DNA of 64,000 nucleotides from Bacillota bacterium (GTDB lineage Bacteria; Bacillota; Clostridia; Lachnospirales; Lachnospiraceae). The notes under the pieces were generated by a model, which searched no databases, was not told where the DNA came from, and was given only the letters and a program-made list of their open reading frames with translations. The stretch covers positions 1-64,000 of the forward strand of contig JAUNDN010000012.1 of assembly GCA_030526045.1 (NCBI GenBank). Direction: 5' to 3'. This document shows positions 6,013 to 33,078 of the stretch, one piece after another; position 1 is the stretch's first letter, and each line of letters begins with the position of its first letter. The position numbers and the translations under genes are program-made.

Positions 6013-9000
6013 TTATATTAGTTTACTGAACTCATCCGCAGGCATCGGCTTATAGAAGTAAAATCCCTGCACATACTTGCCTCCCTGCTCTCTCACAAAT
6101 TCAACCTGCTCTTCGGTCTCAACACCCTCTGAAATCGTCTCAAATCCCAAGTTTTCAGCCAGACGCATAATCGCTGAAATCACTGCTTTGTTTTTGTAGT
6201 CTAATTCATTCTTAAGGAAAAAGCCTCCATCCAGCTTAATAATATCCACCGGAAGCGATTTCATCAGACTTAAGGTAGAGAAGCCTGCACCAAAGTCATC
6301 CATGGAAATTACAAACCCCATATCCTTCATCTGCTTAACAACTTTAATCAGACGTTCTGTGTCCTCAAAGAAAACACTTTCTGTAATTTCCAGTTCTACC
6401 TGATTAGGACTTACACCATATTGATCGCTTAGCTGCTTTAAATATACCGGGAGCTCATCATTCCGCAAATGCAGCCTGGATATATTGATAGAAATTAGTG
6501 GAACTTTCTTTCCCTCATCCTGCCATTTTCTGATCAGCCTGAAGGTCTCCCGATAAACATATTTATCAATCTCTACAATCATCCCGTTCTCTTCAGCCAG
6601 TGGGATAAATTTCCCGGGTGAAACCAGATTTCCGTCTGCGTCAATCATTCTGACAAGTGCCTCTCCTCCGGTAATTTCATTTGTCAGAATATTTACTTTC
6701 GGTTGGATGAACACTCTGAAATATCCCTTTTCAAGAGAATCCTTCATTGCTCTGTTAATTCTTTCCCGTTCCTTCTCCTGAAGTTCAATTTCTCTTGTGT
6801 AAACATAAATGCCGCGTGTATCATACATATTTGAAAGCGCCATTTTTCTTGCTTTCATCGCTTTGTCAAAGCATCGGCTGATATATTCCTCTCCTTCCGG
6901 TATCCAATAAACACCTGCAAAGCACTGAATAGAAATGTTAGGGAACTTTCCTCTGAATTGTCTGGAAAGGTCTTCAGAAAGTTCTCTCATTGTTTTGTAT
7001 TTTCCCTTGCAATAGTTATTCGAATCCGTCAATGCCACAAAGTCATCACCCTTGATACGGCAAAAGAACTCCTTTTCCTCAAGTCCGCTCTGTACCGCTT
7101 CTGCAAAAGCTTTGAGGATCAGGTCTCCGGTTTCATAACCATACTCATCATTAATTCTGGAGAAGTCCTGGATACCCATAAAAATCAGAACATATCGTTT
7201 CTCCTGTTCCTTAATAAGTGCCCTGGCGGTTTCCATTCTGAACTTTTCGTAGGACATAACGCCCGTCAGCTGATCTATACCTTTCACCCGCTTAAGAAAA
7301 TCAGTTACATTTGATTTGCATACCAGGATCTGATTGACTCCCTGCGTTTTTCCCATGTAAGATGCTGTCATCGTATACCAGTTATCATCTTCGGGATCGT
7401 AAATCTCTACGGTGCTGTCATCTTTTCCTCTCTGGTAATCACGGAGGGGACATGAATCACAAGGGGCATCCTTTCCCATAACAGCCTGATAGCATACCTG
7501 TCCATATTCCGCATTCGGGTACTGTTCCTGTGCATAACGGCTCATGTACAGAATCTTATAAGTACCCTCTTCGATCACATAATAAATCTGGTTCAGGGTA
7601 TCCATTGCCTTTTTGCCGATAATATACTCTGTTTCCAGCTCCGCCTTTACCTGACGCTGCAAGAGGTAACTGGAGATCATTTTGGTAATACTGGAAAGAG
7701 TATTAATCTCGACCAGATTCCACTTCCGTTCCTTCCAGCATTCAAAGGTAAGAACACCTGCCATTTTGCTTCCATCCATAATCGGAAATTGGATTGCAGA
7801 AACAGGAACCTTATTCATAGCATACACATCATCTGAATAATCCTCACGTTCATCCTTCCCTTTATCCAGAATGTTATACTCTATATTTCTGTAATACTTT
7901 TCCAAGATAAACCAGTTGATACTTCCGGTCTGCTCTATCTTGATAACATCGTCTCCATCATCCTCCCTTGTCCATCTGGAAGTGACACGTATTTTCCGCC
8001 TGACTGCATCCCATTCCATGAGAGTGCTTCTGTCCAGTGAAAAGTAAAGACTAACCTCTTCAAAGATCAAATGGATTGCATGATAAAAGTCAGCTTCATT
8101 ACTAATCACCTTAAAGGCAAAGTCAAATAATTCTTTATTTAAATTAGTACGTTTCTTTTCAGTGGACAGCCTTCTTTTGTCTTCATCCCTCAACTTACGA
8201 TAAACTACTCCAAGACAAGTTCCGTAATCTCTGTCTTTTTGAAAAATATGGAAGTTGCTTTCCCCGTTCTTCTTTGCTTCAAGTAGCGCAATATCCGCAT
8301 TATCAAATAATTCCTGATAAGTTTTTCCATCTCTGGGGTATAGCGCAGCTCCTACGCTGATACTGCATTTTTTCCCATCGCGTTCTTCCATAAAACTCTG
8401 GAAACGTAAAAAAACTTTATTGATAAGCCTTTCAACTGTATGCTCATCCTCAGCTCCGGAGCAATAAACCATAAAAGTGTCACCGGAAATCCTTCCGACG
8501 ATATCTTTCATGCGAAAACTGGTATAAATAACATTAGCTGCCTTTTCTAACACACTATTTCCATATACCTGTCCGTATGTATCATTAATGTATTTGAAGT
8601 TATCAATATCCATCAGGAGAAGCGCACCTTTCTCCTCCTCAGATTCTCCGAGCTTTTTTTCAATCATTTTAGTTGCTACTTCATGCTCGTAGAGTCCTGT
8701 CAGAAAGTCTCTGGTCACTTCCCTTTCCAGTAGTTCCTTTTCCGCCTTTTCATCGGTAATATCAGTAACCTGCCCTACAACTCTGATCGGCTTTCCTTCT
8801 TCGTCATAAATCGTTCTGCCCTCATGCCGAAGCAAGGCAAAATGACCGCTGTCCCGCAGAACCCTAAGTTCAGATAATACATGAGCATCCCCACGATCAA
8901 GGCTGTCACAATATTCATCAAACAGAGAAATATCCTCCGGATGAATCAGATCCCATTCCTTCATCTGCTCACGATAGTTTTCTACAATAAGGTTATTATT

Positions 9001-20290: not shown

Positions 20291-20924
20291 TTAAATGACT
20301 TTATTTACCTGCCAGATACCAAACAGAATCAAAAATGCTCCAATGATTGTCATAGGCGTAATAGGTTCATGTAAAAACAAAATGCCCCCTGCCATAGAAC
20401 AGATGGTACACACTGCACCAAACACCGAAATAAGTCCGCTCAAATGCTGTATAAATCTTGACAATACTTCTGTTGATCACACGGAATACTGCCGAGCAGA
20501 TACATCCACCGATCAACAGTACAATTCCGACTGGCTGTATTTCTCCGGCGATTCCTTCCGCAACTGTAATCATAATGACCCCGGTTACTGCGACAACTGA
20601 AAAGACAGCCTGTCTCTTCGTTGGCAGCTCCTTAAGGAAAAGTGCGACAAATGCCGTTGAAACAATAGGTGAGACCGCTAATATCACCCCTGAACAAGTC
20701 ACATTAGTGTATACAATGCCATAGCTCTCACAATAAAAATAGATTAACTCAATAAACCCCAATGCTAACACTCTGAGCAAATGGGGTTTATGAAAATTCA
20801 ATTTTTCCTTGCCCATGAAAATAAGGGCACTCATAACAAGGATTGCCGAAGAAAATCTGACTGCCAACACGATGGAAGGTAAGGCTACATTGATTGCAAC
20901 CTGTGTCAGGGTATTACTGAAACC
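20291..20924 (-). pseudogene. Decayed EamA/DMT transporter gene
   Basis: The minus strand encodes most of the first EamA repeat and the start of the second (GFSNTLTQVAINVALPS to VFRVINRSIVK). The frame then breaks near 20440 and continues in another frame as FIQHLSGLISVFGAV, through FLHEPITP, to a stop at 20291. The 5' end is missing: the first sensible codon follows directly on the cupin stop, so the start codon and about 15-20 residues are gone. The middle of repeat two is too short by roughly 60-90 residues. I call it a pseudogene with 5' truncation, internal deletion and frameshift. Confidence 0.8.
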
Positions 20925-21353
20925 CTATAATCCTTCTCTTTCTGCTTCTGCTCTGGTATGATGTATTGTTCCTTTAGCATGATTTGGTGGTGCATAGACA
21001 GAAGATACGCGTAGGGAAACATTACCTGTGTTTATAATATTATGCCATGTTCCTGCAGGTATAAAAATAACATCTCCCCTGGAAACATTTTGACATAAGT
21101 TCAAATTTTCTTTGTATTTCCCCATTTTGACCATTGCTTTTCCCTGTTCAATCCGAATCATCTGATCTGTATCACGATGAGATTCTATCCCTATCTCCTC
21201 ATTGGGAGGTATACACATCGATGTCATCTGCAAATGGTATCCTGTCCAAGTAGCAGTGCGAAAATTTTGGTTTTGTAATGTCAATTGCTCCATATTTGCT
21301 ATATACGGATCAGGTCCATGGTCCGTTTCACACATGTGACTATTAAAATACAT
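20925..21353 (-). CDS. Cupin domain protein
   Basis: 142 residues with one cupin barrel: IGIESHRDTDQMIRIEQG for metal motif 1 and GDVIFIPAGTWHNIINTG for motif 2 (His and Glu positions largely kept). Such small cupins may bind a metal and act as isomerases or be structural; no substrate can be named. GGAG lies six bases before the ATG. Its stop codon adjoins the truncated transporter gene, so a deletion joined the two. Confidence 0.85.
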   Translation of the reverse strand: MYFNSHMCETDHGPDPYIANMEQLTLQNQNFRTATWTGYHLQMTSMCIPPNEEIGIESHRDTDQMIRIEQGKAMVKMGKYKENLNLCQNVSRGDVIFIPAGTWHNIINTGNVSLRVSSVYAPPNHAKGTIHHTRAEAEREGL

Positions 21354-21436
21354 AAGGTCTCCAGTTTATTTTTTACCATATATTACGTTCTGTAAGCACT
21401 TTTGTTACTTAGTTTAGTCTACCTTTACAGGATACA

Positions 21437-22615
21437 TTATTTCTTCAATCTCCAAAAGCCACCATCATGCGGAATCACAACGCCATGCTGCAATTTGTCT
21501 TCAAAGTATTTTTCAAGTTTTGCTTTGTTTTCCTCTACGATTCTCTTCTCATTCGGTATACACATAGCCAGGTCTCTACATATTTCATCAACATTATTAT
21601 ATGTAAAAGGACTAGGTAGAACTATCTCCTCTATCGAGTTGAAGTATTTTTCGAGAATTGCCATACAGGCTTCATTTTTCTTATGCCTTATTTGCAATTC
21701 ATCCTTCAGAGCTTTTGTATCAATCCCTATATCCTCAAAAACATCCAACCAGAAATCATAATGTGCTTTCGGAATATTGCCAAATCCGTTCATCGAGAAA
21801 ACACCACCCTGATCGAGTACCTTTGATACATTCCCAATGAATCTGTCCGCATCCTTAAGGGAATCCATAACATAATGAGCCAATATCATTGAATACTTAT
21901 CCTTACTTATATGGCTCCATGTAGCATCCTCTTCGATATCTTCAAAGAATAGATCTATCTTCGTTCCTGGTGAAAGCTCCTTTTCATTTTCACCAATATA
22001 TTTTTCGAAATCATCCGCCCAGCTTCCACGAAGATCGTAAGCATCTATATGCACATTCTTAGGAATTTGAGTCCAGTTGTTTCTCCAAACCTTGGAATAT
22101 CCACATCCAAGATCCAGAATTCTTTCGTTTTCATTAATATCCAAGGAATTATATACCTTAACATACCAGTCAGGTTCTCCTTTGGTATGATCCAGCGCAA
22201 AGAAATGTCCTGCATCCTTTCTCTGATCAAGCTGCATTTTTTTTAGTATCTCCGCTACATCATCCCAATCAGGATTTCCATTGCTCCTTGCCATTACAGC
22301 CTTAATTCTGGTAACTGCCTTTTCAAGTTCATATTGCTTAGCCTCCATAATATCAATCTGTTCCTGAAGAGTCGATAATATGCTGCTATTGTCACTGTTT
22401 TTGAGATTATCTCTGATTTCTTCTAAAGAAAATCCAACCTGTTTTAGTGCGATTATTTTTTCAAGGACCAGCAACGCTTCATCATCATAAAGTCTGTAAT
22501 TTCCTTCTGAATAGTCAGAGGGCTTAAGGAGACCTTTCTTATCATACAGTCTGACAGCTTTTTGTGAAATTCCGGCCTTCTTTGCAATCTCTCCTGATGT
22601 CATCTTTTTATTCAT
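21437..22615 (-). CDS. MerR family regulator fused to a SAM-dependent methyltransferase
   Basis: 392 residues. Residues 1-75 are a MerR winged helix (TSGEIAKKAGISQKAVRLYD, NYRLYDDEALLVL). A coiled-coil dimerisation helix spans ~75-120. The rest is a class I methyltransferase with motif I ILDLGCGYSKVW (~166) and a typical acidic strand-end (HIDAYDLRG). In MerR proteins the C-terminal domain senses the inducer; here a methyltransferase takes that place, so it may sense or modify a small molecule. AAAGGAAAT precedes the ATG, and a palindrome lies in the promoter. Confidence 0.9.
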   Translation of the reverse strand: MNKKMTSGEIAKKAGISQKAVRLYDKKGLLKPSDYSEGNYRLYDDEALLVLEKIIALKQVGFSLEEIRDNLKNSDNSSILSTLQEQIDIMEAKQYELEKAVTRIKAVMARSNGNPDWDDVAEILKKMQLDQRKDAGHFFALDHTKGEPDWYVKVYNSLDINENERILDLGCGYSKVWRNNWTQIPKNVHIDAYDLRGSWADDFEKYIGENEKELSPGTKIDLFFEDIEEDATWSHISKDKYSMILAHYVMDSLKDADRFIGNVSKVLDQGGVFSMNGFGNIPKAHYDFWLDVFEDIGIDTKALKDELQIRHKKNEACMAILEKYFNSIEEIVLPSPFTYNNVDEICRDLAMCIPNEKRIVEENKAKLEKYFEDKLQHGVVIPHDGGFWRLKK

Positions 22616-22641
22616 AATTCCATTTCCTTTCTGTGAGCAAA

Positions 22642-22672
22642 ATAATAGTTTCTTGAACGTTCATAAGCTCAC
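22642..22672 (-). promoter_or_regulatory. Candidate MerR-type promoter with central palindrome
   Basis: Minus strand TATTAT (22642-22647) is preceded by a 19-base gap and a poor -35 (GTGAGC, 22667-22672). The perfect palindrome TGAACGTTCA (22654-22663) lies within the gap. A long spacer with a central dyad is the classic arrangement for MerR-regulated promoters. It is upstream of the MerR-methyltransferase gene. Confidence 0.5.
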
Positions 22673-22697
22673 CTTAAAGGATTCCCCAGGGGAAGAG

Positions 22698-23510
22698 TCA
22701 ATACTTTCTGATGTATTCAATTTGCTTATTAAGCATTTCTATGTCAACTTCACCTTTATGATTAAATGCTGTTGATTCTAAAGTCAGCGTATCATCATAA
22801 CCTTTAGACTTAATAAATGAAAAGAATTTTTCAAAATCAATATGGCCGCTTCCGATGGGAAGTGTCCTTAAATTTGCCCAGTCCATGATACCGCCACCAT
22901 AATCATTAACATGAAAGTGCTTCAGATGATTTTCTGTCCACAGCCAATCATATTCAGAAGAATATAATAGCTCCAATTGTCCATGAAAAGCCGCCATCTT
23001 TGTATCAAATATAAAATGGATATCCGGATATTCCATAGCAAGCTCGCACCAATGTTCCATTGGCGTTTTTACATTGCATACCACATTTTCCACCAGCAGA
23101 TCCATTTCATTATCATCTGCAATTTCACGTACTTTTTTATAACACTCTATGTTATTTTCAAAATGCTGATCAGATGTAATACCATCCCATAGATGAATTA
23201 TCATCTTCTCTGCACCCATATCATGTGCCATTTTGGCATTTATCTTAAATCTTTTGAAGGCATCATCATATTCCTGCCTGCCCCCTTTACTAATGCTTTC
23301 ACCGATGCTTTTCTGACAGTGATATGTTGGCGTAACAATATGATTCATACAAAAAAACTCAACTATATCATCAACCTTCTCATACCAATCACTATACATC
23401 ATAAATTCAAAACCGTCACAATGAATCTTATTGGTAAGATCCTTTAACAGCCTATAATCTCTCCCATTCGGACGACCAATTAAGGCTCCTGTAGAAACGA
23501 AAATCTGCAT
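22698..23510 (-). CDS. Sugar phosphate isomerase/epimerase family (AP endonuclease 2-type TIM barrel)
   Basis: 270 residues. Motifs of the xylose isomerase-like barrel are present: KMIIHLWDG, LLVENVV, HFIFDTKMAAF, HFHVNDYGGG, IGSGHIDFEKFF and a late Glu in LTLEST, giving the metal-binding Glu/Asp/His set. The start is ATG 23510, with AGAGGA seven to eight bases upstream; a GTG at 23528 has the ribosome site too close. Substrate unknown. It is 47 bases downstream of the glycosyltransferase gene on the same strand and may be co-transcribed with it. Confidence 0.85.
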   Translation of the reverse strand: MQIFVSTGALIGRPNGRDYRLLKDLTNKIHCDGFEFMMYSDWYEKVDDIVEFFCMNHIVTPTYHCQKSIGESISKGGRQEYDDAFKRFKINAKMAHDMGAEKMIIHLWDGITSDQHFENNIECYKKVREIADDNEMDLLVENVVCNVKTPMEHWCELAMEYPDIHFIFDTKMAAFHGQLELLYSSEYDWLWTENHLKHFHVNDYGGGIMDWANLRTLPIGSGHIDFEKFFSFIKSKGYDDTLTLESTAFNHKGEVDIEMLNKQIEYIRKY

Positions 23511-23557
23511 ACCAAATTCCTCTTTCACTATTCCTTCAAGAATAAAAATAAGTGCTT

Positions 23558-25051
23558 TTACTTATAAAAATGATACAGGTTGATTCCATACTTACCTAAC
23601 CACATATCCATATGTGATTCCATTTGATAGCCCATTTCTTCCATATCATCCAGCACTTCATCATCAAACTCATACCCTATAAATGCCCATATCTCACTTG
23701 GTTGTCTTTCCAGATTATTCGGATTTTCTGTAGTAACTTCATTTGGATAATAATATTGAAGTACCGACCATGCCAGATGCTTCACCCCATTTGAAACCAA
23801 AATGGCATCCTCATTCGGTGACCCTACGATATCAAGAACTCGCTTTGTCTGGAAATCCTGCGTCTTTGTTACCGACCTGAAATATTTAAAATCAAAAAGT
23901 CCGATTATAAAAGTCAACATGAGCATAATCCAGATCATTGTATACTTGAGACCGGCACTTATTTTATACTCTATCAGTCTTTTCATGCATAACATAAAAA
24001 TGAAAAGCACTAGAGGTATAAGAACATAAGTATATCTGCATGTAAGAATAGGATGGAAAGAATAGCTCACACCATATCCAAAGCCTAAAAGCACAAGTAT
24101 TACAGTAAAGAACAATAGAATTCCCTTAAGTTCGGTTGACCAGTTTTTCATTCCAGGTTTATGTAAAGCCAGGTAAACAGAAACCTTCTCATCGCCCTTT
24201 CTAACCGTGAGCAACCCGGATTCCTTGACCAGAATGATAACTGACATAATGATAATAAATGAAAGAATAATTGGACGTAATCTCACTCCACCGGTTATAA
24301 AGTCAAGAATTCTATCTAATGAATCAGGTTCTACCATCCATGAATTCCCAAGTTCCGCTTGTGTCTGAAAATACAGAACAAACAGCCACGGAATATATAC
24401 GACCACATAAATCATCGTCGATAAGAACCAACCTAAAAATGCTTTTTTATTCTTAGTTGAAACAAAATTAAAGAGGCCTGCAAAAAAGATAATAAGGCCA
24501 CACACAGCAAGCCCATAATAATGTGTATAAGCAGCCAAGATTCCAAATAACGTCATAAACACAAAGTGCGAAATTTTGGTTCCGTCTTTCATTATCCGAA
24601 ATGCACAAAAAGTGCAAAGAAATACAAACAGAAATACCAGAGAATACATTCTGATTTCTAGATTATACTCACAGCAGCTGGCAGATAATCCGCTAACAAG
24701 GATAAAAAAAGATGCAGGAATGGACCCCAAATGCTTCTTGATCAAAGTGCATGCCAGTAAAATACCTACCACAAACGGAATAAGAGATGCAATATGGTAT
24801 ACGCTCGTCTTATATCCAAATAGATCTGCAAATATTCTCAGATAATAATAATATAGCGGCGGGTGCGAATCCCAGTAGTAAACTCTTTGAAAAATTCCAT
24901 AAAAATCACAGTTAATAATTGCCATTTGAGAGTATGCTTCATCGCCCCATACAACATTATCAAATGCAATAGAAATATTTAAGACACTGACTCCTAATGC
25001 CAATAAATAAATTCCAATCTTATCAATAAATCTATTAACTTTCTTTATCAT
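23558..25051 (-). CDS. GT39/ArnT-like membrane glycosyltransferase (GT-C fold)
   Basis: 497 residues with about eleven to twelve membrane helices. The first extracellular loop holds WGDEAYS, with the Asp-Glu pair typical of GT-C enzymes, followed by WDSHPPLYYYY, as in protein mannosyltransferase and ArnT-like families that use polyprenyl-phosphate sugars. It probably glycosylates an envelope polymer or protein on the outer face. AAGGAACG lies about eight bases before the ATG. Divergent from the lipase gene. Confidence 0.85.
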   Translation of the reverse strand: MIKKVNRFIDKIGIYLLALGVSVLNISIAFDNVVWGDEAYSQMAIINCDFYGIFQRVYYWDSHPPLYYYYLRIFADLFGYKTSVYHIASLIPFVVGILLACTLIKKHLGSIPASFFILVSGLSASCCEYNLEIRMYSLVFLFVFLCTFCAFRIMKDGTKISHFVFMTLFGILAAYTHYYGLAVCGLIIFFAGLFNFVSTKNKKAFLGWFLSTMIYVVVYIPWLFVLYFQTQAELGNSWMVEPDSLDRILDFITGGVRLRPIILSFIIIMSVIILVKESGLLTVRKGDEKVSVYLALHKPGMKNWSTELKGILLFFTVILVLLGFGYGVSYSFHPILTCRYTYVLIPLVLFIFMLCMKRLIEYKISAGLKYTMIWIMLMLTFIIGLFDFKYFRSVTKTQDFQTKRVLDIVGSPNEDAILVSNGVKHLAWSVLQYYYPNEVTTENPNNLERQPSEIWAFIGYEFDDEVLDDMEEMGYQMESHMDMWLGKYGINLYHFYK

Positions 25052-25165
25052 AACTTTACGTTCCTTACTAAAATCTTTTGTGTTCCGATATTACTGAACT
25101 TATTGAATATTTTATCAAATTTATTCAGAAAATTGTAGATGATTTCTCCGGATATTTTAATCTCC

Positions 25166-25194
25166 TTTTTATTTCCTAAAAAAAGACTTATAAT
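25166..25194 (+). promoter_or_regulatory. Candidate promoter of the lipase gene
   Basis: TTTTTA (25166-25171), 17 bases, perfect TATAAT (25189-25194), then AAGGAG (25210-25215) and an ATG at 25223. The layout marks 25223 as the original gene start. Confidence 0.6.
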
Positions 25195-25222
25195 GAAATA
25201 AATACTTTTAAGGAGATTCCGA

Positions 25223-25374
25223 ATGTTCTCATACATAATTATTTCCATTATTATGATTGTTATCTGTATTCTGGACGCCTGCAGAATAATGGTAATGGCT
25301 CCACTTATCTGACTGTAGCAATATTTGCTATTGCGACACTTGTATTTCAGCTTTATACAACGCTACGTCTCCAC
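25223..25374 (+). pseudogene. Detached 5' end of the lipase gene (frameshift near 25270)
   Basis: The ATG at 25223 has AAGGAG seven bases upstream. It encodes MFSYIIISIIMIVICIL, a membrane helix, then runs into a stop at 25310-25312. Moving to the lipase frame near 25270 gives YSGRLQNNGNGSTYLTV and a second helix that joins the lipase reading frame without a stop. The frame change equals one lost base. Either a real inactivating mutation or a sequencing error. Confidence 0.65.
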
Positions 25375-26628
25375 TTGCAGTCTGTCAGGAAAGACAAAAC
25401 CAAAAATCCCAGAGTTAATATCATTTATTCCGGACGGAATCTGATCCATTGCGGACTATGGGGACTTTATTTATTGATGGTCTGGTATATCGTCAGCTAC
25501 TTTATTTTACCTGTCAATCCTTATCAAGAACTCATAGGATATACCTTTTCTTTTCTTCCGTCCATTCATAATACGGCAAAAGCAATAGCTGCTTTGTCGT
25601 TTGAAGCAATTTACGCCGTGCTGTTTGTCTGGTTATTTTTAATAAATGGCTGTCTCCGCATTTTTATTTGCTCACGCAATTTAGTAGTTGGAAAACGCAT
25701 ATTTATCCTGTTATTTATGTGGGTCCCGATTGTGCAATTGTATCTGGCTCATATCATGTGCAATGCTGCAAAGGATGAATACCTGGTTACACTTAACCGA
25801 AGTAAGCAGGAAGCCTTTACAAAAACAGATGAATTATGCCGAACAAAATATCCGATTATCATGGTTCATGGCATCGGTTTCAGGGACTTACGATACTTTA
25901 ATTATTGGGGACGAATTCCTCAAATTCTGCAGCAGCACGGAGCAAAGATATATTACGGTCATCAGAATGCATGGGGAACCATCGAAGATAATGCTGCTAC
26001 CATCTGTAGGATCATTGACAAGGCTCTCTCTGAAAATAATTGTGACAAGGTCAATATCATTGCTCACTCAAAAGGCGGTCTGGATTGTCGCTATTTGATT
26101 TCCTCTCTGGGATATGCGGATAAGGTTGCCAGCCTCACCACTATTAACACTCCTCATCGCGGTTCGGAAATTATTACATTACTTAATAAATTACCTGATT
26201 ATGTATATCGATATATTGCTAAGCAATTAAACAAGCCTTTCCTATTGGCAGGCGATACAAAGCCTGACTGCTATGCGGCAAGCAAACAACTGGATCCTCT
26301 TTTTTGTGAGGAATTCAATCTTAATAATCCTAATGCCAAAGGAGTATATTATCAGAGCTATACTTCAATTATGAAGAGCCTCTTCAGTGATTCTTTGTTG
26401 TGGTTTCCTTATTTATTAATGTGCACACAAAAAGGCCGCCAAAATGACGGTTTGGTAGATGTCTCAAGCGCTGAGTGGGGAGAATTCAAAGGCGTCCTCA
26501 AGAGCACTACCAACCGCGGTATCTCCCACGGGGATATGATTGACCTAAAGCGGGAGGATATCAAAGGCTTTGATGTATTAAAGAAATTTTATGATATTGT
26601 ATGTGAACTAAAAAATAGAGGGTATTAA
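25375..26628 (+). CDS. Membrane-anchored alpha/beta-hydrolase, triacylglycerol lipase-like
   Basis: 417 residues in the longest uninterrupted frame. Three N-terminal membrane helices (~25-130) are followed by a lipase domain: oxyanion strand YPIIMVHGIG, nucleophile elbow AHSKGG (Ser232), Asp in NDGLVDVSS and His in GISHGD. The TTG at 25375 has no ribosome site, and coding sense continues upstream to 25223 in a shifted frame, so the native protein was probably ~470 residues. If the frameshift is real, expression from here is doubtful. Lipase role is by family. Confidence 0.8.
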   Translation: MQSVRKDKTKNPRVNIIYSGRNLIHCGLWGLYLLMVWYIVSYFILPVNPYQELIGYTFSFLPSIHNTAKAIAALSFEAIYAVLFVWLFLINGCLRIFICSRNLVVGKRIFILLFMWVPIVQLYLAHIMCNAAKDEYLVTLNRSKQEAFTKTDELCRTKYPIIMVHGIGFRDLRYFNYWGRIPQILQQHGAKIYYGHQNAWGTIEDNAATICRIIDKALSENNCDKVNIIAHSKGGLDCRYLISSLGYADKVASLTTINTPHRGSEIITLLNKLPDYVYRYIAKQLNKPFLLAGDTKPDCYAASKQLDPLFCEEFNLNNPNAKGVYYQSYTSIMKSLFSDSLLWFPYLLMCTQKGRQNDGLVDVSSAEWGEFKGVLKSTTNRGISHGDMIDLKREDIKGFDVLKKFYDIVCELKNRGY

Positions 26629-26638
26629 TATCCGTTTT

Positions 26639-26665
26639 AAAAGAAACTCAACTATATCTTCTTTT
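26639..26665. terminator. Weak bidirectional hairpin between convergent lipase and Nudix genes
   Basis: AAAAGAA (26639-26645) and TTCTTTT (26659-26665) can pair around a 13-base loop. The stem is AT-only apart from one GC pair, so termination is doubtful; nothing better is present in the 43-base gap. Confidence 0.3.
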
Positions 26666-26671
26666 CAATGT

Positions 26672-27565
26672 TTACTTCACTAGAACTCCACAAAAGAACT
26701 GTTCCTGGAATGAAATCTGTGCATATATTTCATTATCACTGGGGATATTCACATCGCTTCGGACATTACCATTTTCATCACATGGAACCACAATCCATTT
26801 AGTTTCATTGTCATCATATCTGTGATAAACCGCAATTACCTTTCCAGTGAATTCTTGAACTGCAGAATTCTCTCCCAAAAGATATATATCCTGCTCTGCT
26901 CCATCTCCCCCGATCACTCCTTCCACATAACCATAATTAACTGGATAATACATATCCTTGTTACGTGGATGGTAACTACCCATGGGACGATCAATTTTTC
27001 CTTTTACTACCTGTCCTATCATATTCTGATATCTATCTGAAGGTACAGGATTTGCTTCAAATCCAAAAAGATCTCCCATATTCAAACAGCACTCACCACG
27101 ATCGTACATTTCTTTGATCTCTGTAACTGTAAGCCACTTTGTCTGTAGCACTTCCCTGGTTGTTGCTTTTTGCAAATCAGGTTCCTCATTTGTTTCAAAA
27201 TAGAACGAGTCTCGTATCCAATTATGGCGTCGTCCATCATAGATGCAGGCTACCTTTGTTGCAAGTGTTTTTGCATTCTCTGGTTTCAATGTGATTCCTA
27301 CTTCTTCAAAAACCTCTCGTTGTGCTGCATCTAAGCTTGTATCACCTGATACCGCATGTCCGGCTACCGTTTCCCATTTCAAGGGATCCGTATCTTTATC
27401 AGCACTGCGCTGAGATACCAAATACTTTCCGGTCTTTGGATTTTTAATCCAAACCATGACCCACATATGAAATTCATCTTCTAAGAGATTCCCCTGTTCT
27501 CCACGAATACAAGTCTTCCCGGTTAATCTTCTATCTTTTGTATATACATCCCATAATTCGCCCAT
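26672..27565 (-). CDS. Nudix hydrolase fused to an inorganic-pyrophosphatase-like domain
   Basis: 297 residues. Residues ~1-175 are a Nudix domain of the IPP-isomerase-like type (WDVYTKDRRLTGKT, then the box GHAVSGDTSLDAAQREVFEEVGI split here as GHAVSGDTSL and REVFEEVGI; the first box Glu is Asp). Residues ~185-297 resemble a short domain labelled inorganic pyrophosphatase in clostridia (DRPMGSYHPR, YPVNYGYVEG, HRYDDNETKW). Substrate unknown. The start is ATG 27565, with AAGG nine bases upstream. It lies 52 bases downstream of an XRE regulator on the same strand. Confidence 0.85.
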   Translation of the reverse strand: MGELWDVYTKDRRLTGKTCIRGEQGNLLEDEFHMWVMVWIKNPKTGKYLVSQRSADKDTDPLKWETVAGHAVSGDTSLDAAQREVFEEVGITLKPENAKTLATKVACIYDGRRHNWIRDSFYFETNEEPDLQKATTREVLQTKWLTVTEIKEMYDRGECCLNMGDLFGFEANPVPSDRYQNMIGQVVKGKIDRPMGSYHPRNKDMYYPVNYGYVEGVIGGDGAEQDIYLLGENSAVQEFTGKVIAVYHRYDDNETKWIVVPCDENGNVRSDVNIPSDNEIYAQISFQEQFFCGVLVK

Positions 27566-27617
27566 GAATAATACCTTCTTTATCTCGTACTTCAAACGAG
27601 CAGTTGCTGTGCTGCGC

Positions 27618-27821
27618 CTAAGAATCTGTAAACTCAAATATGTCCTCAACAGTAACTCCAAAAACCTTAGCGATATCCATCGCAAGTTTCAGAGATGGAT
27701 TGTACTTACCATTCTCCAGATGTACGATTGTTTCTCTTCTTGCATTCACCAGTTCCGCTAATTCTGCCTGTTTCATCCCGGCATTTTCGCGGTATTCCTT
27801 GATTTTCGTCACGAGCACCAC
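27618..27821 (-). CDS. XRE family helix-turn-helix regulator
   Basis: 67 residues, nearly all HTH_3: KQAELAELVNARRETIVHLE is the HTH and NPSLKLAMDIAKVFGV the following helices. It belongs to the small single-domain regulators usually paired with a membrane protein. The start is GTG 27821, one base after the upstream stop, with AAAGGGGG about seven bases before it. Likely binds the three repeat operators upstream of its operon and represses its own transcription (inferred). Confidence 0.9.
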   Translation of the reverse strand: MVLVTKIKEYRENAGMKQAELAELVNARRETIVHLENGKYNPSLKLAMDIAKVFGVTVEDIFEFTDS

Positions 27822-27822
27822 T

Positions 27823-28233
27823 TTAAACCCCCTTTGCATCCATATAACAGAACAGGATCGTCCTGATAATGGAGATCAGTACCAGTACGCCCATCAGCAT
27901 ATAGCCGATTACTTCCGAGGATACTGCAAATCTTAAAAATGCAGACAAAAATCCGATGCAGACTATCGATACCATAAGAATCTTATAGCAGATTGAATCG
28001 CATCTTTTTAGGTTCGCAGCCGCCATTTCGTCCACGACCTCTTTTTTGTATTTCTTTTCTCGGGCAGCCAAAGAACAGAAAAACAAAAAGGCAAATATTA
28101 CAACGCAATTCTGAATGGAAGTGAAATAATTCTCCCAACCATTTCTGGCACAGCACCAATAATACACTGCAACACAAACTGCCAGCACGATACGTGCGCC
28201 CACCAGTTCTCTTAATGTTACTTTCCTTTTCAT
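27823..28233 (-). CDS. Small four-helix membrane protein, partner of XRE regulator
   Basis: 136 residues with four predicted membrane helices (about residues 10-30, 40-60, 85-105, 115-135). It has a basic N-terminus and a basic cytoplasmic loop REKKYKKEV. I do not recognise a named family beyond the class of small membrane proteins encoded with XRE regulators in Firmicutes. The start is ATG 28233, with GGGAGG eight bases upstream. First gene of the operon after the operator array. Confidence 0.7.
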   Translation of the reverse strand: MKRKVTLRELVGARIVLAVCVAVYYWCCARNGWENYFTSIQNCVVIFAFLFFCSLAAREKKYKKEVVDEMAAANLKRCDSICYKILMVSIVCIGFLSAFLRFAVSSEVIGYMLMGVLVLISIIRTILFCYMDAKGV

Positions 28234-28252
28234 ACAAATACCTCCCAACGAA

Positions 28253-28337
28253 TGTGATATATTTATAACATCTTGCGTGTTATAAATATATCACACGTAT
28301 TGCGGACTGTCAACAGAAATGTTATAAATATTTCACT
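28253..28337 (-). promoter_or_regulatory. Autoregulated promoter with three operator copies for the XRE operon
   Basis: Minus-strand promoter TTGACA (28308-28313), 17 bases, TATATT (28285-28290). An 18-base sequence beginning TGTTATAAATAT occurs at 28278-28295, as a perfect inverted copy at 28253-28270 (7-base gap), and again with changes at 28320-28337 (TGTTATAAATATTTCACT). The middle copy covers the -10 box. The arrangement is typical of cooperative repression by a small XRE protein. Confidence 0.8.
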
Positions 28338-28406
28338 TTTGTAATGAGCGGGAACTTCCGATTTATTACTTCTTCCTTTTCGTTCTTGTTGTATGTGCAA
28401 ACAAAA

Positions 28407-28791
28407 CTACATTTCAATCAATACTTTCCATTTTCCATTTCGCTTTCCACTTTCGCGAACAATTAACCCTTTTTCCTGCATCTCAACAGTTCTTCTTTTT
28501 ATTGTTCTCTCTGATTTTCCAGATAACTCAGCAATTCTTTTTGAGTTGCAGATGGTTCGGTTTTTAAAATTTTTAATATCGCTAATTCTTCTAGTGATAA
28601 ATCATTATAATTTGCTCGAACTAAGGCATTTCTAAAATACCATGAGTTTTCAGCAAATACTTAGAAGTCTTAATTCCATCTACATCCTGAAGACCAATGG
28701 CAGTCTTCCAAGCAATGCTCTTATCCTTTTTTTCCGGCTCACCTTGACGAATATATTCATTTAATTCTAATTCCCAATTATTATCTGACAA
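28407..28791 (-). pseudogene. Fossil of a Fic family gene
   Basis: From a TTG at 28791 (ribosome site AGAGGTG) the minus strand encodes LELNEYIRQGEPEKKDKS and then WKTAIGLQDVDGIKTSKYLL, similar to the N-terminus of Fic proteins of this bacterial group, with a stop at 28621. A second frame (28639-28499) encodes YFRNALVRANYND, a segment that follows the Fic core in such proteins. A third frame (to the stop at 28407) encodes a winged helix, ELSGKSERTIKRRTVEMQEK. The catalytic Fic core is missing. I infer an internal deletion plus frameshifts. Confidence 0.65.
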
Positions 28792-28955
28792 AACATTCAC
28801 CTCTCTTCAAAATATCATGAAATACGCATCTCAAACTTAACAAGCATTGAAAAGCTGTAAATCTTTTTCAGAATAATTATCCAATCACCTCACCCTTAAA
28901 GTTTCTATATCAAATACACTGCAAAAGTTGCACAATTCTGCTAATCCGCATAAAT

Positions 28956-29069
28956 TCAAGGTTTCTTACTCAGCAAGCACACAGTCTCTACATGGCACGA
29001 GAAAACGCCACGGGTTCCTATATATATGCGTTTTTCCCAGCCAATTTTTGGTTTCAACAAATTGCTCAT
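28956..29069 (-). pseudogene. Second copy of the rlmD C-terminal motif (probable attachment-site scar)
   Basis: A 37-residue frame from ATG 29069 ends in HVETVCLLSKKP and a stop. The intact rlmD ends HVETVCLLSKKCPV. Eleven residues are identical (28962-28994 versus 31648-31680), but only 26 of 33 bases match, all differences being synonymous. The upstream part (IYIGTRGVFSC) is not rlmD. This is what an element inserting into the rlmD 3' end and carrying its own replacement C-terminus would leave. No recombinase gene remains nearby. Confidence 0.6.
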
Positions 29070-29103
29070 CTTGAAACAACTTTCAAAGACCAAAAACTAC
29101 GAT

Positions 29104-29154
29104 AAAACGGCTATTTTTCGTACACGGGAACATATCCTTGATACGAAAATAGCC
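29104..29154 (-). terminator. Terminator of the PLD-Fic operon
   Basis: On minus, GGCTATTTTCGTA pairs with TACGAAAAATAGCC with one bulged base over a 19-base loop and is followed by GTTTTAT, just after the Fic stop at 29164. Confidence 0.75.
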
Positions 29155-29163
29155 TGTTTCTTC

Positions 29164-30210
29164 TTATTTTAATCTGACATAGAATGTAGATTTGCCAGTG
29201 CCTTCCCTGCGAAGTTCTCCTTCTGCTACAAGCTTACGAAGTGAACCTTCAATTGAACTTACGCTAAGCACCGGACACAATTCACGGATGTCCTGCTTAT
29301 TGAATTTCCCAATCTTGTTCTGTGTTGCTTTACGCACCATCTCTATTGCCGGAAGTTTCTCTTCCACAATTTCAAATCGGTCTTCAAAATCCTTGTAGGC
29401 TGCAAGAATGGTTCCAAGCAGATATTTGATGAATGGAACTGCATCCTCTTTACCATCATGCCAGCCATCCTGGGAATGACCTAAAGCCTCATAGTACAAA
29501 TCCTTGTTCTTCGCAATCTTAGCTTCAAGTGAGATGTACTTTCCTACATAAAAGCCACTGCGATAAAGTAGCAGGGTTGTAAGCAATCTGCTCATTCTGC
29601 CGTTACCATCATTGAAAGGATGGATGCACAGGAAGTCATGAATGAAAATCGGAATTGCCAATAGTGGCTCCACCTCATAATTTCCAATCACCCTGTTGTA
29701 CTCTTCACAAATTCTATCGAGTGCCTCTGGCGTTTCAAACGGAGCCAGGGGTGTGAACAGAACTTCTGTATGTCCATCCGGGTATGTGGCACTAATATAA
29801 TTCTGTACTGTTTTAGTTCTTCCTGCAACTGGATTATTCATATGGCTGCATAAAATTTTATGCAACTGCAGGATATAATTCTGCGTAATCGGAATCGCAT
29901 CAAAACTCTCATGAATGATATTTAGTACATCACGATACCCAGCGATTTCCTCTTCGTCTCTATTTCGAGGTGTGGTCTTCTCCTCCACCAACTGTTTAAT
30001 TCTTGTATTTGTGGTTACAATTCCTTCAATCGCATTTGATGCCTCGGTACTCTGAATCTTTGCAATCTCTACAAGCTTTTCAAGTTCATCGGGTCTTTGC
30101 TTAAGGTACAGTTCCTGCTTACCTGCGAATTTGTATATTGCTGCAATGAGACCGAGAATTTCTGAATCCCATTTTTCTTCTTTAATTTTAGAATAGTTAA
30201 ATGCTCTCAT
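29164..30210 (-). CDS. Fic family protein (AMP transferase) with internal inhibitory helix
   Basis: 348 residues. The N-terminal domain carries SNAIEG (58-63), the S/T-xxx-E-G inhibitory motif of class II Fic proteins. The core has the complete catalytic motif HPFNDGNGRMSR (His197), and a C-terminal winged helix (~275-348) follows. The family transfers AMP to Ser/Thr/Tyr hydroxyls of proteins and is often self-inhibited. 27 bases downstream of the PLD-type nuclease gene and in one operon with it. The ribosome site is weak. Target unknown; a toxin or defence role is inferred from context. Confidence 0.92.
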   Translation of the reverse strand: MRAFNYSKIKEEKWDSEILGLIAAIYKFAGKQELYLKQRPDELEKLVEIAKIQSTEASNAIEGIVTTNTRIKQLVEEKTTPRNRDEEEIAGYRDVLNIIHESFDAIPITQNYILQLHKILCSHMNNPVAGRTKTVQNYISATYPDGHTEVLFTPLAPFETPEALDRICEEYNRVIGNYEVEPLLAIPIFIHDFLCIHPFNDGNGRMSRLLTTLLLYRSGFYVGKYISLEAKIAKNKDLYYEALGHSQDGWHDGKEDAVPFIKYLLGTILAAYKDFEDRFEIVEEKLPAIEMVRKATQNKIGKFNKQDIRELCPVLSVSSIEGSLRKLVAEGELRREGTGKSTFYVRLK

Positions 30211-30237
30211 TTTTCTTAAGCACCTACCTTCCTCATG

Positions 30238-31278
30238 CTATTTAAGTTTTTCCTTTATTCTGGCATTTACAAAATCAACAAATGCCCTGCTAACTTCAAA
30301 AGGTCTTCCATACTGCATTGCTTTAAGTGAATCCTTTTCCTGATTTGCCAGTACAAAATCTGTAGCAGACACTTTATTTTCTGCAAAGTCATCAGCTAAT
30401 GCCATCGTCTTTATATCATACAGCCACCACTTTTGACTAAACTCCTTCGTTAGACATTTAAGTGTGTATTTATATAGCCATTTGTCATCCGGTCCATCCA
30501 GGTATTCTTCCCAGGTATCATCTGCTACCATATAAATGCCAACAAGTTTCTTGTGTCCAATGGCATTTATTATGAGAATATCCCCTTTATAAACATTGGT
30601 ATTACTAAACCCAAGCTTGATATCTTTTACAAGAGGCTCTTCCGGGTGCCATTTATCTCTTCTTCCTATACTCTTTACTAAATATCTAGTCTGCACGCTT
30701 TCTTTGGTTTTTATAATACCTGTGGCCTTAAAAACTTTAGGCTTAGGTACAGGATTATTCTTTTCGAACTCTATTGCTTTTTTATATAGATCATCCAGAT
30801 GCACAGTTGAAATCTCGCAGTGCAACTGTTCTTTTATCATTTCATACATTGCCTCTTGAATCGAGCTGTCCGTAACTGCCAGACCGTACTCCTTATTCTT
30901 TTCGAGACCTTTATCTGTAAAATTAGATGACCCTATAATAAATCCTGTTGGGATATCTCCCTCGTAAAACAAGTAGACTTTCCCGTGCAGTTCATTATCA
31001 TAATACATGTTAAGTTTTATACCACTCTTATCGCAATAATCCGAAAAAGCATGTAGCGATTTAATGATACTGGGAGCTACTCCAAAGCCATCAAGATTTG
31101 TATAAATATCTACATATTTTATAGTAGGCATTTGTTTAACAATCTTGGACATATCATCTGCCAAAAAAGGTGAAACTACTATCAACTTATCTGACTTTGC
31201 TGCAATTTCCTTGAGCCTGCCAATATGAGTCCCTACTACATTTTCTGTTATAAATGTTTTAGTCGTTGTATTTTGCAT
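30238..31278 (-). CDS. PLD-superfamily nuclease (NgoFVII-like N-domain) with PUA/EVE-like C-terminal domain
   Basis: 346 residues. Residues ~1-150 are a single PLD-type half: LHGKVYLF (His98, Lys100) followed by GSSNFTD, as in dimeric nucleases such as NgoFVII-like restriction enzymes. Residues ~195-300 (VYKGDILIINAIGHKKLVGI and following Trp-rich part) resemble PUA/EVE/ASCH folds that bind modified nucleotides; this second call is by eye. First gene of a two-gene operon with Fic, under a promoter covered by a perfect inverted repeat. Possible restriction or abortive-infection enzyme. Confidence 0.75.
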   Translation of the reverse strand: MQNTTTKTFITENVVGTHIGRLKEIAAKSDKLIVVSPFLADDMSKIVKQMPTIKYVDIYTNLDGFGVAPSIIKSLHAFSDYCDKSGIKLNMYYDNELHGKVYLFYEGDIPTGFIIGSSNFTDKGLEKNKEYGLAVTDSSIQEAMYEMIKEQLHCEISTVHLDDLYKKAIEFEKNNPVPKPKVFKATGIIKTKESVQTRYLVKSIGRRDKWHPEEPLVKDIKLGFSNTNVYKGDILIINAIGHKKLVGIYMVADDTWEEYLDGPDDKWLYKYTLKCLTKEFSQKWWLYDIKTMALADDFAENKVSATDFVLANQEKDSLKAMQYGRPFEVSRAFVDFVNARIKEKLK

Positions 31279-31339
31279 CTATGAACACAACCTTTCTGCA
31301 ATCACATTTCTTAGTAGCATTATTCCCTTAACATCCTCT

Positions 31340-31378
31340 CTTTCCCTTAAATTATAGCCAATAATAAGGGAAAGTCAA
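31340..31378 (-). promoter_or_regulatory. Promoter and inverted-repeat operator of the PLD-Fic operon
   Basis: Minus strand TTGACT (31373-31378), 16 bases, perfect TATAAT (31351-31356). A perfect 10 bp inverted repeat, CTTTCCCTTA (31340-31349) and TAAGGGAAAG (31365-31374), brackets the -10 box and overlaps the -35. A repressor bound here would block transcription. No obvious cognate regulator gene is adjacent. The rest of 31279-31635 holds a terminator and no gene. Confidence 0.75.
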
Positions 31379-31494
31379 TACTGTTGTACTTGCTTTCTCT
31401 TAAAATCAACTACATTTTACGGTATAAACATTATTTTGACCAATATTATTTATCCGCGAACAATCTATACTCTACCGCGTACAAATTTATATAA

Positions 31495-31540
31495 AAAAAC
31501 CTTTTAGCAATCAGATGTTTTTTTTCGCTAAAAGGTTTTT
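31495..31540. terminator. Bidirectional terminator downstream of rlmD
   Basis: Perfect 14 bp arms AAAAACCTTTTAGC (31495-31508) and GCTAAAAGGTTTTT (31527-31540) with an 18-base loop. On minus it is followed by T-rich sequence and would end the htrA-like/yhaM/rlmD transcript ~100 bases after the rlmD stop. Confidence 0.85.
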
Positions 31541-31635
31541 ACCTCTTGTACATAAATCCTTTTTATTTGCTTATGCACATTTTATTTCTATAATTATTAT
31601 TAATATGTTTCCTTTAAAACACCCCTCAACCCCGC

Positions 31636-33078
31636 TTAAACTGGGCATTTCTTAGAGAGTAAACAGACAGTCTCCACATGCACCGTCATTGGGAATAAAT
31701 CAAATGCCCTCACTCTCCTTAATTCATATCCGCCCTCACACAGGATTTTCAAGTCCCTTGCAAGCGTTGCGCTATCGCAGCTCACGTATACGATCTTTTC
31801 CGGCTTCATCTTCAGCATGGTGGTAAGGCAGGCCTCATCACATCCCTTCCGGGGAGGATCCACTACAATCACATCCGCAAAAATTCCTTCCTTTTCGTAC
31901 TTATCCGGCAGGATCTCCTCAGCCTTACCGGTAAAGAACTGCGCATTATCAATATGATTGTTTGCGGCGTTGGCTCTGGCGTCCTCAATCGCCTGAGGCA
32001 CGATTTCCACACCGTACACCTGCTTTGCGGCCCCTGCCAGAAACAGGGAAATTGTTCCGATTCCGCAATACAGATCCCACACCGTTTCCTTTCCGGTAAG
32101 CCCGGCATAAGCAAGTGCCTGACTGTACAGCTTTTCCGTCTGGATCGGATTGACCTGATAGAAGGAAAGTGGAGAGATGGAAAAAGTGATTCCCTGATCT
32201 GTCAGTGCTAACCCCTTCGAAACATCCCTCATATGAATGGTATCGTTGATCCGGTCACTACCCCAGATGGTAATAACCTCTTTTCCCATGATAACATTGG
32301 TATTTTCGGTATTGATACTGACGGAAATGCTCTTCATTCCGGAAACCTTGGCAAGCTTACCTATCAACTTGTCCTGTGCAGGCAGATATTCAGCGGTCTT
32401 CTTTCCTTTTCTGAAATTTATGACCAGACAGACCATCAGCTCCCTGCTGGTGAAGCCTTTACGAATCAGCACATGCCGGATCAGACCTTTTCCCGTTGCC
32501 TCCTCGTATGCCGAAACATGATTGTCCCTCATATAGGAAAGAATAATTTCCAGGATCTCCTTATTTTCTCCCACACCCAGGCTACAGTCAGTATTGGAAA
32601 TAATGTCGTGGGTTCGTCCTGCATAAAAACCGGCTACAGGATTTCCCTCTTTATCTGTTCCGATGGGATACTGCGCCTTATTCCTGTAATGAAACGGTTC
32701 TTCCATTCCTACGATCGGTTCTGTGACTTCATCTATCATTTCTTTCCTAAAGCCACCGATCCGAATTAGATTATTTCTCACCTTATCTTCCTTAAACTGA
32801 AGCTGTCTTTCATAGCTCATTGCCTGCAGCTGGCATCCGCCGCACTGCCTGTGAAATGCACAGTTTGTATCTACACGAAAAGGAGAAGGTGTAAGCACCT
32901 TCTCTAATCTTCCGTAAGCAAAATTCTTTTTCACGCGGGTGACACGAATCTGTGCATCATCACCGATGATTGCATCCTTGACAAAAAAGGGAAAACCGTT
33001 CACCTTGCCAATCCCTTCCCCTTCTGCAGTCATGTCCACAATTTTTACCGTTAAAATCTGATTTTTTTCAAAATCCAT
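31636..33078 (-). CDS. rlmD: 23S rRNA (uracil1939-C5)-methyltransferase RlmD family
   Basis: 480 residues. N-terminal TRAM domain (~1-60), iron-sulfur cysteines in CAFHRQCGGC plus a later Cys, SAM-binding DLYCGIGTISLF, catalytic DPPRKGC and VSCDSATLARD. The start is ATG 33078, with AAAGGAG six bases upstream; the frame is open further upstream into yhaM without a ribosome site. Third gene of an operon, 10 bases after yhaM. The extreme C-terminus (HVETVCLLSKKCPV) is mirrored by a second copy at 28956-28994, suggesting the 3' end has served as an insertion site. Confidence 0.93.
   Translation of the reverse strand: MDFEKNQILTVKIVDMTAEGEGIGKVNGFPFFVKDAIIGDDAQIRVTRVKKNFAYGRLEKVLTPSPFRVDTNCAFHRQCGGCQLQAMSYERQLQFKEDKVRNNLIRIGGFRKEMIDEVTEPIVGMEEPFHYRNKAQYPIGTDKEGNPVAGFYAGRTHDIISNTDCSLGVGENKEILEIILSYMRDNHVSAYEEATGKGLIRHVLIRKGFTSRELMVCLVINFRKGKKTAEYLPAQDKLIGKLAKVSGMKSISVSINTENTNVIMGKEVITIWGSDRINDTIHMRDVSKGLALTDQGITFSISPLSFYQVNPIQTEKLYSQALAYAGLTGKETVWDLYCGIGTISLFLAGAAKQVYGVEIVPQAIEDARANAANNHIDNAQFFTGKAEEILPDKYEKEGIFADVIVVDPPRKGCDEACLTTMLKMKPEKIVYVSCDSATLARDLKILCEGGYELRRVRAFDLFPMTVHVETVCLLSKKCPV

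Follow-up and report, generated by a model that had tools for sequence, protein, structure and literature searches.

Duplication of the RlmD tail

The locus described here raises the question of why the end of a gene is present twice, in recoded form, on either side of a 2.7 kb unit, and of how such a unit came to be there. The gene is one that we take, from its family, to be rlmD, which codes for an RlmD/RumA-type 23S rRNA uracil methyltransferase. It lies in a stretch of 64,000 nucleotides, hereafter the window, from a Bacillota bacterium of the Lachnospiraceae (assembly GCA_030526045.1, contig JAUNDN010000012.1, positions 1 to 64,000, forward strand). An initial annotation of the bare sequence had proposed a mobile-element remnant inserted at the 3' end of rlmD, bringing its own replacement for the gene's tail and carrying PLD-family and Fic genes as cargo. 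Our data point in the same direction: the unit is very probably an integrated, recombinase-free cassette resembling a cis-mobilizable element (CIME), located at an RlmD attachment (att) site and generated by the crossover of a large serine recombinase (LSR) with exchange of 3' ends. Labels beginning with G, C and L are our handles for the genomes, contigs and loci compared.

The RlmD C-terminus, HVETVCLLSKK (31648-31680, minus strand), is repeated on the same strand 2,686 bp downstream (28962-28994), within the previously noted 37-residue ATG frame at 28956-29069, which is indeed present. A direct recount bore out the earlier count of seven unlike bases out of 33, every change being synonymous: the differing codons are GTG/GTA, GTC/GTG, TGT/TGC, TTA/TTG, CTC/CTG and, with two bases, TCT/AGT. 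RlmD hexapeptides occurred 6 times in the real 20 kb downstream versus 13 times summed over 40 first-order Markov shuffles; the match to the RlmD tail downstream of rlmD is not a chance one. A regular-expression (regex) search gave no additional att copy in the window.

It is extremely improbable that the second copy is all that is left of a segmental duplication or of an rlmD paralog in decay. The genome does hold three rlmD paralogs, and two to five matches are frequent in relatives; however, the similarity is confined to the tail, the flanking DNA of the two copies being unrelated (5 of 30 bases match upstream, 16 of 36 downstream), the RlmD search of the genome returned three full genes only, and the tail swap of a sister genome at the same codon (see below) would be left unexplained. 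The decayed paralog was rejected for the lack of any body similarity upstream of the second copy.

The arrangement was also found elsewhere. At 80 rlmD loci from other genomes (712 kb scanned upstream, 456 kb downstream), extra motif copies numbered six downstream on the same strand, none downstream on the opposite strand and none upstream on either strand, and this distribution by side and strand therefore makes the tail-copy arrangement a property of the rlmD site. The reversed HVETVCLL DNA pattern had no match in 60 genomes. Nearly all copies have in common the core GTNGAR, followed by AC in most, and the crossover core suspected by the initial annotation near GAGACTGT thus overlaps the shared part.

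Exchange of 3' ends among relatives

G033, the nearest genome in the set, is 92.8% identical to the window over 5,594 bp, through rlmD and the DNA upstream of it. This identity breaks immediately after the HVET codons CATGTGGAGAC, and the G033 tail is a different one, of 108 residues from H. The uninterrupted rlmD that had been suggested as a check was thus matched in part: a sister with the same body and another 3' end was found, and a true empty site was not. Among rlmD pairs whose last 300 body bases were at least 84% identical, 13 of 14 had 60-base tails of at most 50% identity and one had identical tails, 10 of the 14 coming from five related loci (65 sites entered the comparison). Conversely, ten pairs with bodies only 40-70% identical had tails 80-95% identical.

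On the opposite side of the island, G033 contig C3 is syntenic with window positions 1-20925, and the sole match of 23500-31650 to G033 covers 57 bases. The variable segment therefore extends over at most ~10.7 kb, from the end of this synteny to the break in rlmD, the two G033 contigs that flank it not being joined.

Serine recombinases at the far end

In relatives, the place expected for the displaced tail is occupied by LSRs of two families. The family-A recombinase genes have an RlmD tail as their own 3' end (e.g. TETVCLMSRVEGK), as recognized by regex in 18 of 25 cases; among the other seven, L232 is cut by a contig end, L255 was scored on an open reading frame (ORF) cut at the locus edge, L241, L242, L245 and L252 show the tail by eye, and L244 is devoid of it. 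In seven of ten family-B cases, a tail copy falls near the end of the LSR ORF, from 65 nt before it to 125 nt after it; in two of the remaining three, the sequence goes on for 0 and 69 bases beyond the ORF, and L226 has no copy. The initial annotation had suggested looking for a serine recombinase in homologous elements and for full elements at this position. Such recombinases are present in relatives, and a fuller element was found in G022: a long-tailed rlmD1 is followed there by ORFs that resemble genes for type I restriction-modification (an identification based on sequence), then by one of the RhuM family and lastly by a family-A LSR that bears an RlmD tail. A family-A LSR is also encoded in the window's own genome, ~8 kb after a long-tailed rlmD3; it is truncated at the contig end and shares 96% identity with the LSR of G003, so that all three rlmD genes of this genome appear to be occupied.

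Homologous recombination or a tyrosine integrase could be considered as the agent of the tail swap in place of serine recombinases, since a stretch of ~11 bp common to both arms is also compatible with a tyrosine integrase. This is very improbable: the far-end recombinases found were LSRs, three of which were tested and displayed Resolvase, Recombinase and zinc-ribbon domains (PF00239, PF07508), while tyrosine integrases were not systematically searched.

Two further observations concern these elements. A RhuM-family ORF lies directly upstream of the family-A LSR at four of 25 places (L233, L235, L236, L241); it could be a recombination accessory or cargo, and at this frequency was rejected as a constant LSR partner. 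The long element-borne RlmD tail (~100 aa; KATYEEIKxYV...GLKVSNLYIAQVKRKCGI), e.g. at L053:11398-11720, had no Pfam match at E 0.01 and recurs on the C-termini of RlmD1, RlmD2, RlmD3 and LSRs.

Left and right ends of the unit

The ~200 bp that follow HVET in the window recur behind all three rlmD paralog types and in other genera, before different cargo. Matches to this left end were obtained in 50 of 397 genomes, most of them over less than 70 bases. The longer ones include rlmD2 of the same genome (76% over 213 nt), G445 (81% over 189 nt), G619 behind an rlmD3-type gene (76% over 194 nt) and G012, directly after an LSR right end (95% over 169 nt); a weaker one lies behind an rlmD2-type gene in G614 (77% over 84 nt). 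The cargo behind it comprised a DdmD-like helicase (145 bits) in G445, PDC-S68 (1,450 bits) in G257, with a left end 69% identical over 240 nt, and two type II methyltransferases in G653, with one 77% identical over 75 nt; of ten proteins chosen from loci with such left ends and from loci with LSR elements, six remained without a PADLOC match at 1e-5. No LSR was flagged downstream of five SKKCPV-like left ends, followed for ~45 kb each in G445, G433 and G614 and to the contig end in G257 and G653, and the G257 cassette ends with an att copy after its cargo. The exact SKKCPV left-end pattern was not found in viral contigs.

A third kind of right end, type C, is found in many stand-alone copies: they have no fused recombinase and have in common the arm WC[AG][AT]G[CG]CAYGTNGARAC, a pattern that was drawn with the window's own arm in view. 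It occurred in 46 of 394 genomes, the reversed control pattern having zero occurrences among the matches listed, and the 30 type C sites with loci comprised 26 stand-alone sites and four inside rlmD-like genes. Distinct arms ending in type C accounted for 48 of 76 stand-alone copies (window left out), a fraction inflated by loci fetched with the same pattern, versus 5 of 83 rlmD arms, the chance expectation being 0.003 per arm. A stricter form was present in 11 viral contigs, with an LSR flagged in three of the 11 loci: an LSR pair ends 146 nt before the type C site in L327, and the LSRs of L330 and L332 lie further upstream, with genes in between. The window's own right arm, TTTTCTCGTGC, is of type C in its proximal bases only. 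As a separate observation, an LSR pair followed by putative ABC-F-like and nucleotidyltransferase-like ORFs (sequence-based names) lies just before a type C site in L308 (G036:C11), within what resembles an rlmD-site prophage.

Recombinase-free cassettes and arrays

Bounded intervals of 0.3-20 kb between consecutive same-strand copies, the window included, contained an LSR ORF in none of 20 cases, and 15 of the 20 had type C right ends. Intervals 11 and 12 are near-identical, some loci were chosen through type C sites and the regex misses family-A ends without H, so that 20 out of 20 is not an unbiased rate. Arrays were observed with four sites after rlmD in G543, two after rlmD in G174 and three in G158, where rlmD is outside the stretch.

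Several of these cassettes match a defence model. The hits to PADLOC in bounded cassettes, for proteins that were hand-picked and not random, were IetS (200 bits, G174), TmtA (449 bits in G528, 1,105 bits in G505), PDC-S22 (441 bits, G158), AbiD (225 bits, G005) and SoFic (132 bits in the window, 141 bits in G013 between rlmD2 and a copy). Type C loci with the left boundary out of view added GajA and GajB (977 and 732 bits, G148) and DruA with SspH (395 and 210 bits, G417). Other cassettes do not look defensive: in G543, the cassettes contain ORFs resembling MerR, ABC-transporter, UvrA and flavodoxin genes (as judged from sequence), no PADLOC match was obtained for the 1,930-aa protein of G543 or for the tested Butyrivibrio cassette protein, and the cassette proteins of L121 and G030 had weak matches only. 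PADLOC was also run on 101 downstream proteins, for which the family counts have no control and no enrichment is claimed.

These data invite the alternative that small cassettes are a mobile class of their own, with two tail sites each, moved in trans by the LSRs of co-resident prophages or islands, in the manner of satellites or of an integron fed by serine recombinases. The LSR-free intervals with their type C right ends, the arrays, the defence matches, one left end at three paralog types with varying cargo and no LSR in the five cases followed, and the LSR of the window's own genome would all suit it. However, besides the bias of the interval set, what remains in L121 looks, to the eye, like the terminal residues of an LSR that was deleted, a mark of decay, and no excision was observed. 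We regard a mobile class as possible, at clearly less than an even chance.

The PLD-Fic cargo

With overlaps removed, just two ORFs of 100 aa or more remain between the tail copies, and they code for the PLD-family and Fic proteins, both as initially described (RE_NgoFVII 37.2 bits, Fic 63.5 bits). No ORF in this interval is related to the ten LSR queries, in agreement with the integrase-free interval reported before. The pair is most likely a defence or toxin module, because the active-site motif of Fic is intact by eye and because the TTCCCTTA/TAAGGGAA repeats before PLD have counterparts before the Fic gene of G030 (36-nt match, 86%). Its sole link to a defence system is the match to the PADLOC SoFic model; the PLD-family protein has weak ZacB and DrmC matches besides.

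Relatives of either protein are found in other settings. Fic relatives up to 86% identical occur at 38 viral loci, three of which have an LSR (flanks up to 4 kb), and relatives below 60% identity occur in 10 of 72,556 plasmid records. A PLD relative at E of at most 1e-30 was present in just two of 391 other genomes, where the surrounding stretches had no Fic of the window kind, RlmD or att motif flagged, and none was found in viral contigs. Cargo specific to the rlmD site was rejected, as none of the 38 viral loci had an att motif or a PLD relative.

Proposed mechanism and its weighing

We propose that an LSR would cross over within the V-E-T codons (core GTNGAR, usually then AC) at the rlmD 3' end. 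The element would supply its own synonymous 3' end and terminator, so that rlmD would stay readable, and the displaced end would stay at the far side. Applied to the window, the element end would give rlmD the tail SKKCPV before the stop, the PLD and Fic genes would be cargo, and HVETVCLLSKKP with its stop at 28994 would be the far side, whether this is the former rlmD end or an older neighbour's left end. An LSR would thus have made the junction, the cassette would have lost its LSR or never had one, and the PLD-Fic pair would act as a defence or toxin-antitoxin-like module.

The remnant at the rlmD 3' end proposed by the initial annotation is supported by the sister break after HVET, the left end shared by three paralog types and the tail-bearing LSRs of relatives, which have no equivalent between the in-frame, synonymous copies of the window. 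Its replacement tail needs refinement: the copy on rlmD would be the element-borne one, and the copy at 28994 the displaced end or an older neighbour's left end.

The latter possibility, in which a tandem array had an earlier member whose left end survives as the second copy, and in which the PLD-Fic unit is accompanied in the window by an older unit in decay, is a close call that falls slightly short of even. A short Fic-like fragment lies just beyond the second copy; it resembles cargo of rlmD2 in the same genome, its DNA has a 60-nt match to C85 (73%, E 0.007) and is 84% identical over 69 nt to DNA adjoining rlmD in L095, and it appears to be the remains of a further unit. Furthermore, there is no long match in the sister down to 20925, and relatives have tandem arrays. 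The absence of a further att copy in the window, by regex, speaks against it.

Several observations weigh against an LSR-made, CIME-like cassette. Motif copies exist that are remote from any rlmD in the fetched stretch: L168, flipped, at 8063 in G023:C28 and L165 at 5848 in G008:C1 lie amid chromosome-like genes and could represent scars or the ends of arrays. Neither an excised or circular form nor a true strain-level empty site was seen, no LSR was found between the window's two tail copies, the genome of the window is a draft of 85 contigs, and most relatives are drafts, many from metagenomes. The distal part of the window's right arm scores -2.3, within the top 10% of the background, whereas members of the type C set average 8.3 (leave-one-out); this arm fits type C proximally only, so its assignment is tentative, and its full type C membership was dismissed as weak, the distal part not being significant. 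Finally, the PLD-Fic pair was found nowhere else (other genomes, viral contigs, fetched flanks), and the viral Fic-relative loci lack the att motif in fetched flanks of up to 4 kb.

Features of the window

Coordinates are collected in Table 1. For the part of the variable region at 20926-23499, the comparison covered G033 contig C3 from 38000 on, contig L053 and G012:C123.

Table 1. Features at and around the rlmD1 locus, in window coordinates
Feature	Position	Strand	Basis
rlmD1, RlmD/RumA-type 23S rRNA uracil methyltransferase, 480 aa, 3' codons probably element-supplied	31636..33078	-	ORF
attL-like site, HVETVCLLSKK copy 1; identity to sister G033 ends directly after CATGTGGAGAC	31648..31680	-	alignment, recount
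Conserved element left end, 'SKKCPV' type, terminator-like hairpin ~31494-31540	31469..31680	-	nucleotide matches; hairpin by eye
TTCCCTTA/TAAGGGAA repeats upstream of PLD, probable operator	31320..31375	.	by eye
PLD-family nuclease-like protein, 346 aa, HKD motif by eye	30238..31278	-	RE_NgoFVII 37.2 bits, PLDc_2 31.3 bits
Fic protein, 348 aa, HPFNDGNGR motif intact by eye	29164..30210	-	PF02661 63.5 bits; SoFic model 131.8 bits
Inverted repeat after Fic, terminator-like, 72% complementary	29093..29170	.	
attR-like site, HVETVCLLSKK copy 2, inside frame 28956-29069	28962..28994	-	sequence recount
Short ORF like N-terminus of Fic-like protein in rlmD2 cargo of the same genome	28621..28800	-	by-eye comparison
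Variable region without long match in sister G033, flanked by blocks syntenic with two G033 contigs	20926..31652	.	

Two neighbouring features were also observed. An 18-nt inverted repeat without mismatches, TGTGATATATTTATAACA, is accompanied by a third, related half-site (28253-28295); it precedes an ORF of 141 aa and a regulator of the Cro/C1 type and is a likely operator. A transporter gene at 20299-20925, presumably of EamA type, is 97-99% identical to that of G033, the neighbouring 3.3 kb being just 83% identical, and the window copy lacks ~180 bp; this may be a sign of recent exchange followed by decay.

Relation to known elements

Target gene and mode of exchange have precedents. The available text on Streptococcus integrative and conjugative elements (ICEs) at rumA describes a single serine integrase, direct repeats in the target and in the integrase gene, and a reciprocal 3' exchange that alters the C-terminus (PMC4701971); integrative and mobilizable elements (IMEs) at rumA have likewise been described, according to the accessible part of another report (PMC5357655). 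The window unit shares with these streptococcal ICEs the rlmD/rumA 3' target and the exchange of the C-terminus; however, it is 2.7 kb long, its ORFs code for PLD and Fic and for no relaxase or conjugation module, and the serine integrase expected at the other end is absent from it and present in relatives. The frame is kept by synonymous recoding in the window, whereas it changes in the streptococcal ICEs, as far as the available text goes (PMC4701971).

CIMEs accrete in tandem according to the available part of their description (PMC5704250), and the window unit resembles them in several respects: it retains attL- and attR-like sites, has no integration or transfer genes, and has tandem counterparts at the site in relatives. 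No parent element with PLD-Fic cargo was found among other genomes or viral Fic loci. A difference from CIMEs is that short cassettes occur repeatedly with one type of right end and that several of them match a single defence system; this may point to something beyond decay. An analogy with integrons may also be drawn, in that arrays of cassettes lie behind one gene.

The staphylococcal cassette chromosome (SCC) targets the rRNA methyltransferase gene rlmH. The window differs from it, and from the Enterococcus cassette chromosome, in its target rlmD, in the absence of a recombinase from the unit and in that no ccrAB pair was identified; LSRs insert cassettes of variable content in the enterococcal case, which its authors liken to SCC in the available text (PMC6222049). 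The same target gene as in the window is used by phiEr670, a 53 kb RlmD-site prophage (PMC12785378), and by the islands of 100-400 kb at the Dehalobacter rumA hotspot (PMC11578063), and the accessible parts of both reports describe no small recombinase-free cassettes. The open-access literature, in its accessible parts, yielded the streptococcal, Dehalobacter and Erysipelothrix work and no recombinase-free defence cassettes at rlmD/rumA, which is weak evidence of absence. The target gene and the reciprocal 3' exchange are already known, and recombinase-free, defence-type cassettes at rlmD are a variant thereof.

Significance

It is conceivable, although on balance unlikely, that rlmD-family 3' ends in Lachnospiraceae and their relatives are integron-like docks for stacked, recombinase-free cassettes, often with one defence system each, that use a synonymous RlmD tail copy as recombination site and that are moved in trans by prophage or island LSRs of the same cell, which would amount to an exchange system for immunity genes. 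The recoded gene tail provides a base-level handle on the start and end of small defence cassettes, an issue normally blocked by their unknown boundaries. One conserved gene family accepts foreign cassettes, including immunity genes, at all three of its paralog types, and whether phage-borne recombinases shuttle bacterial defence genes becomes testable.

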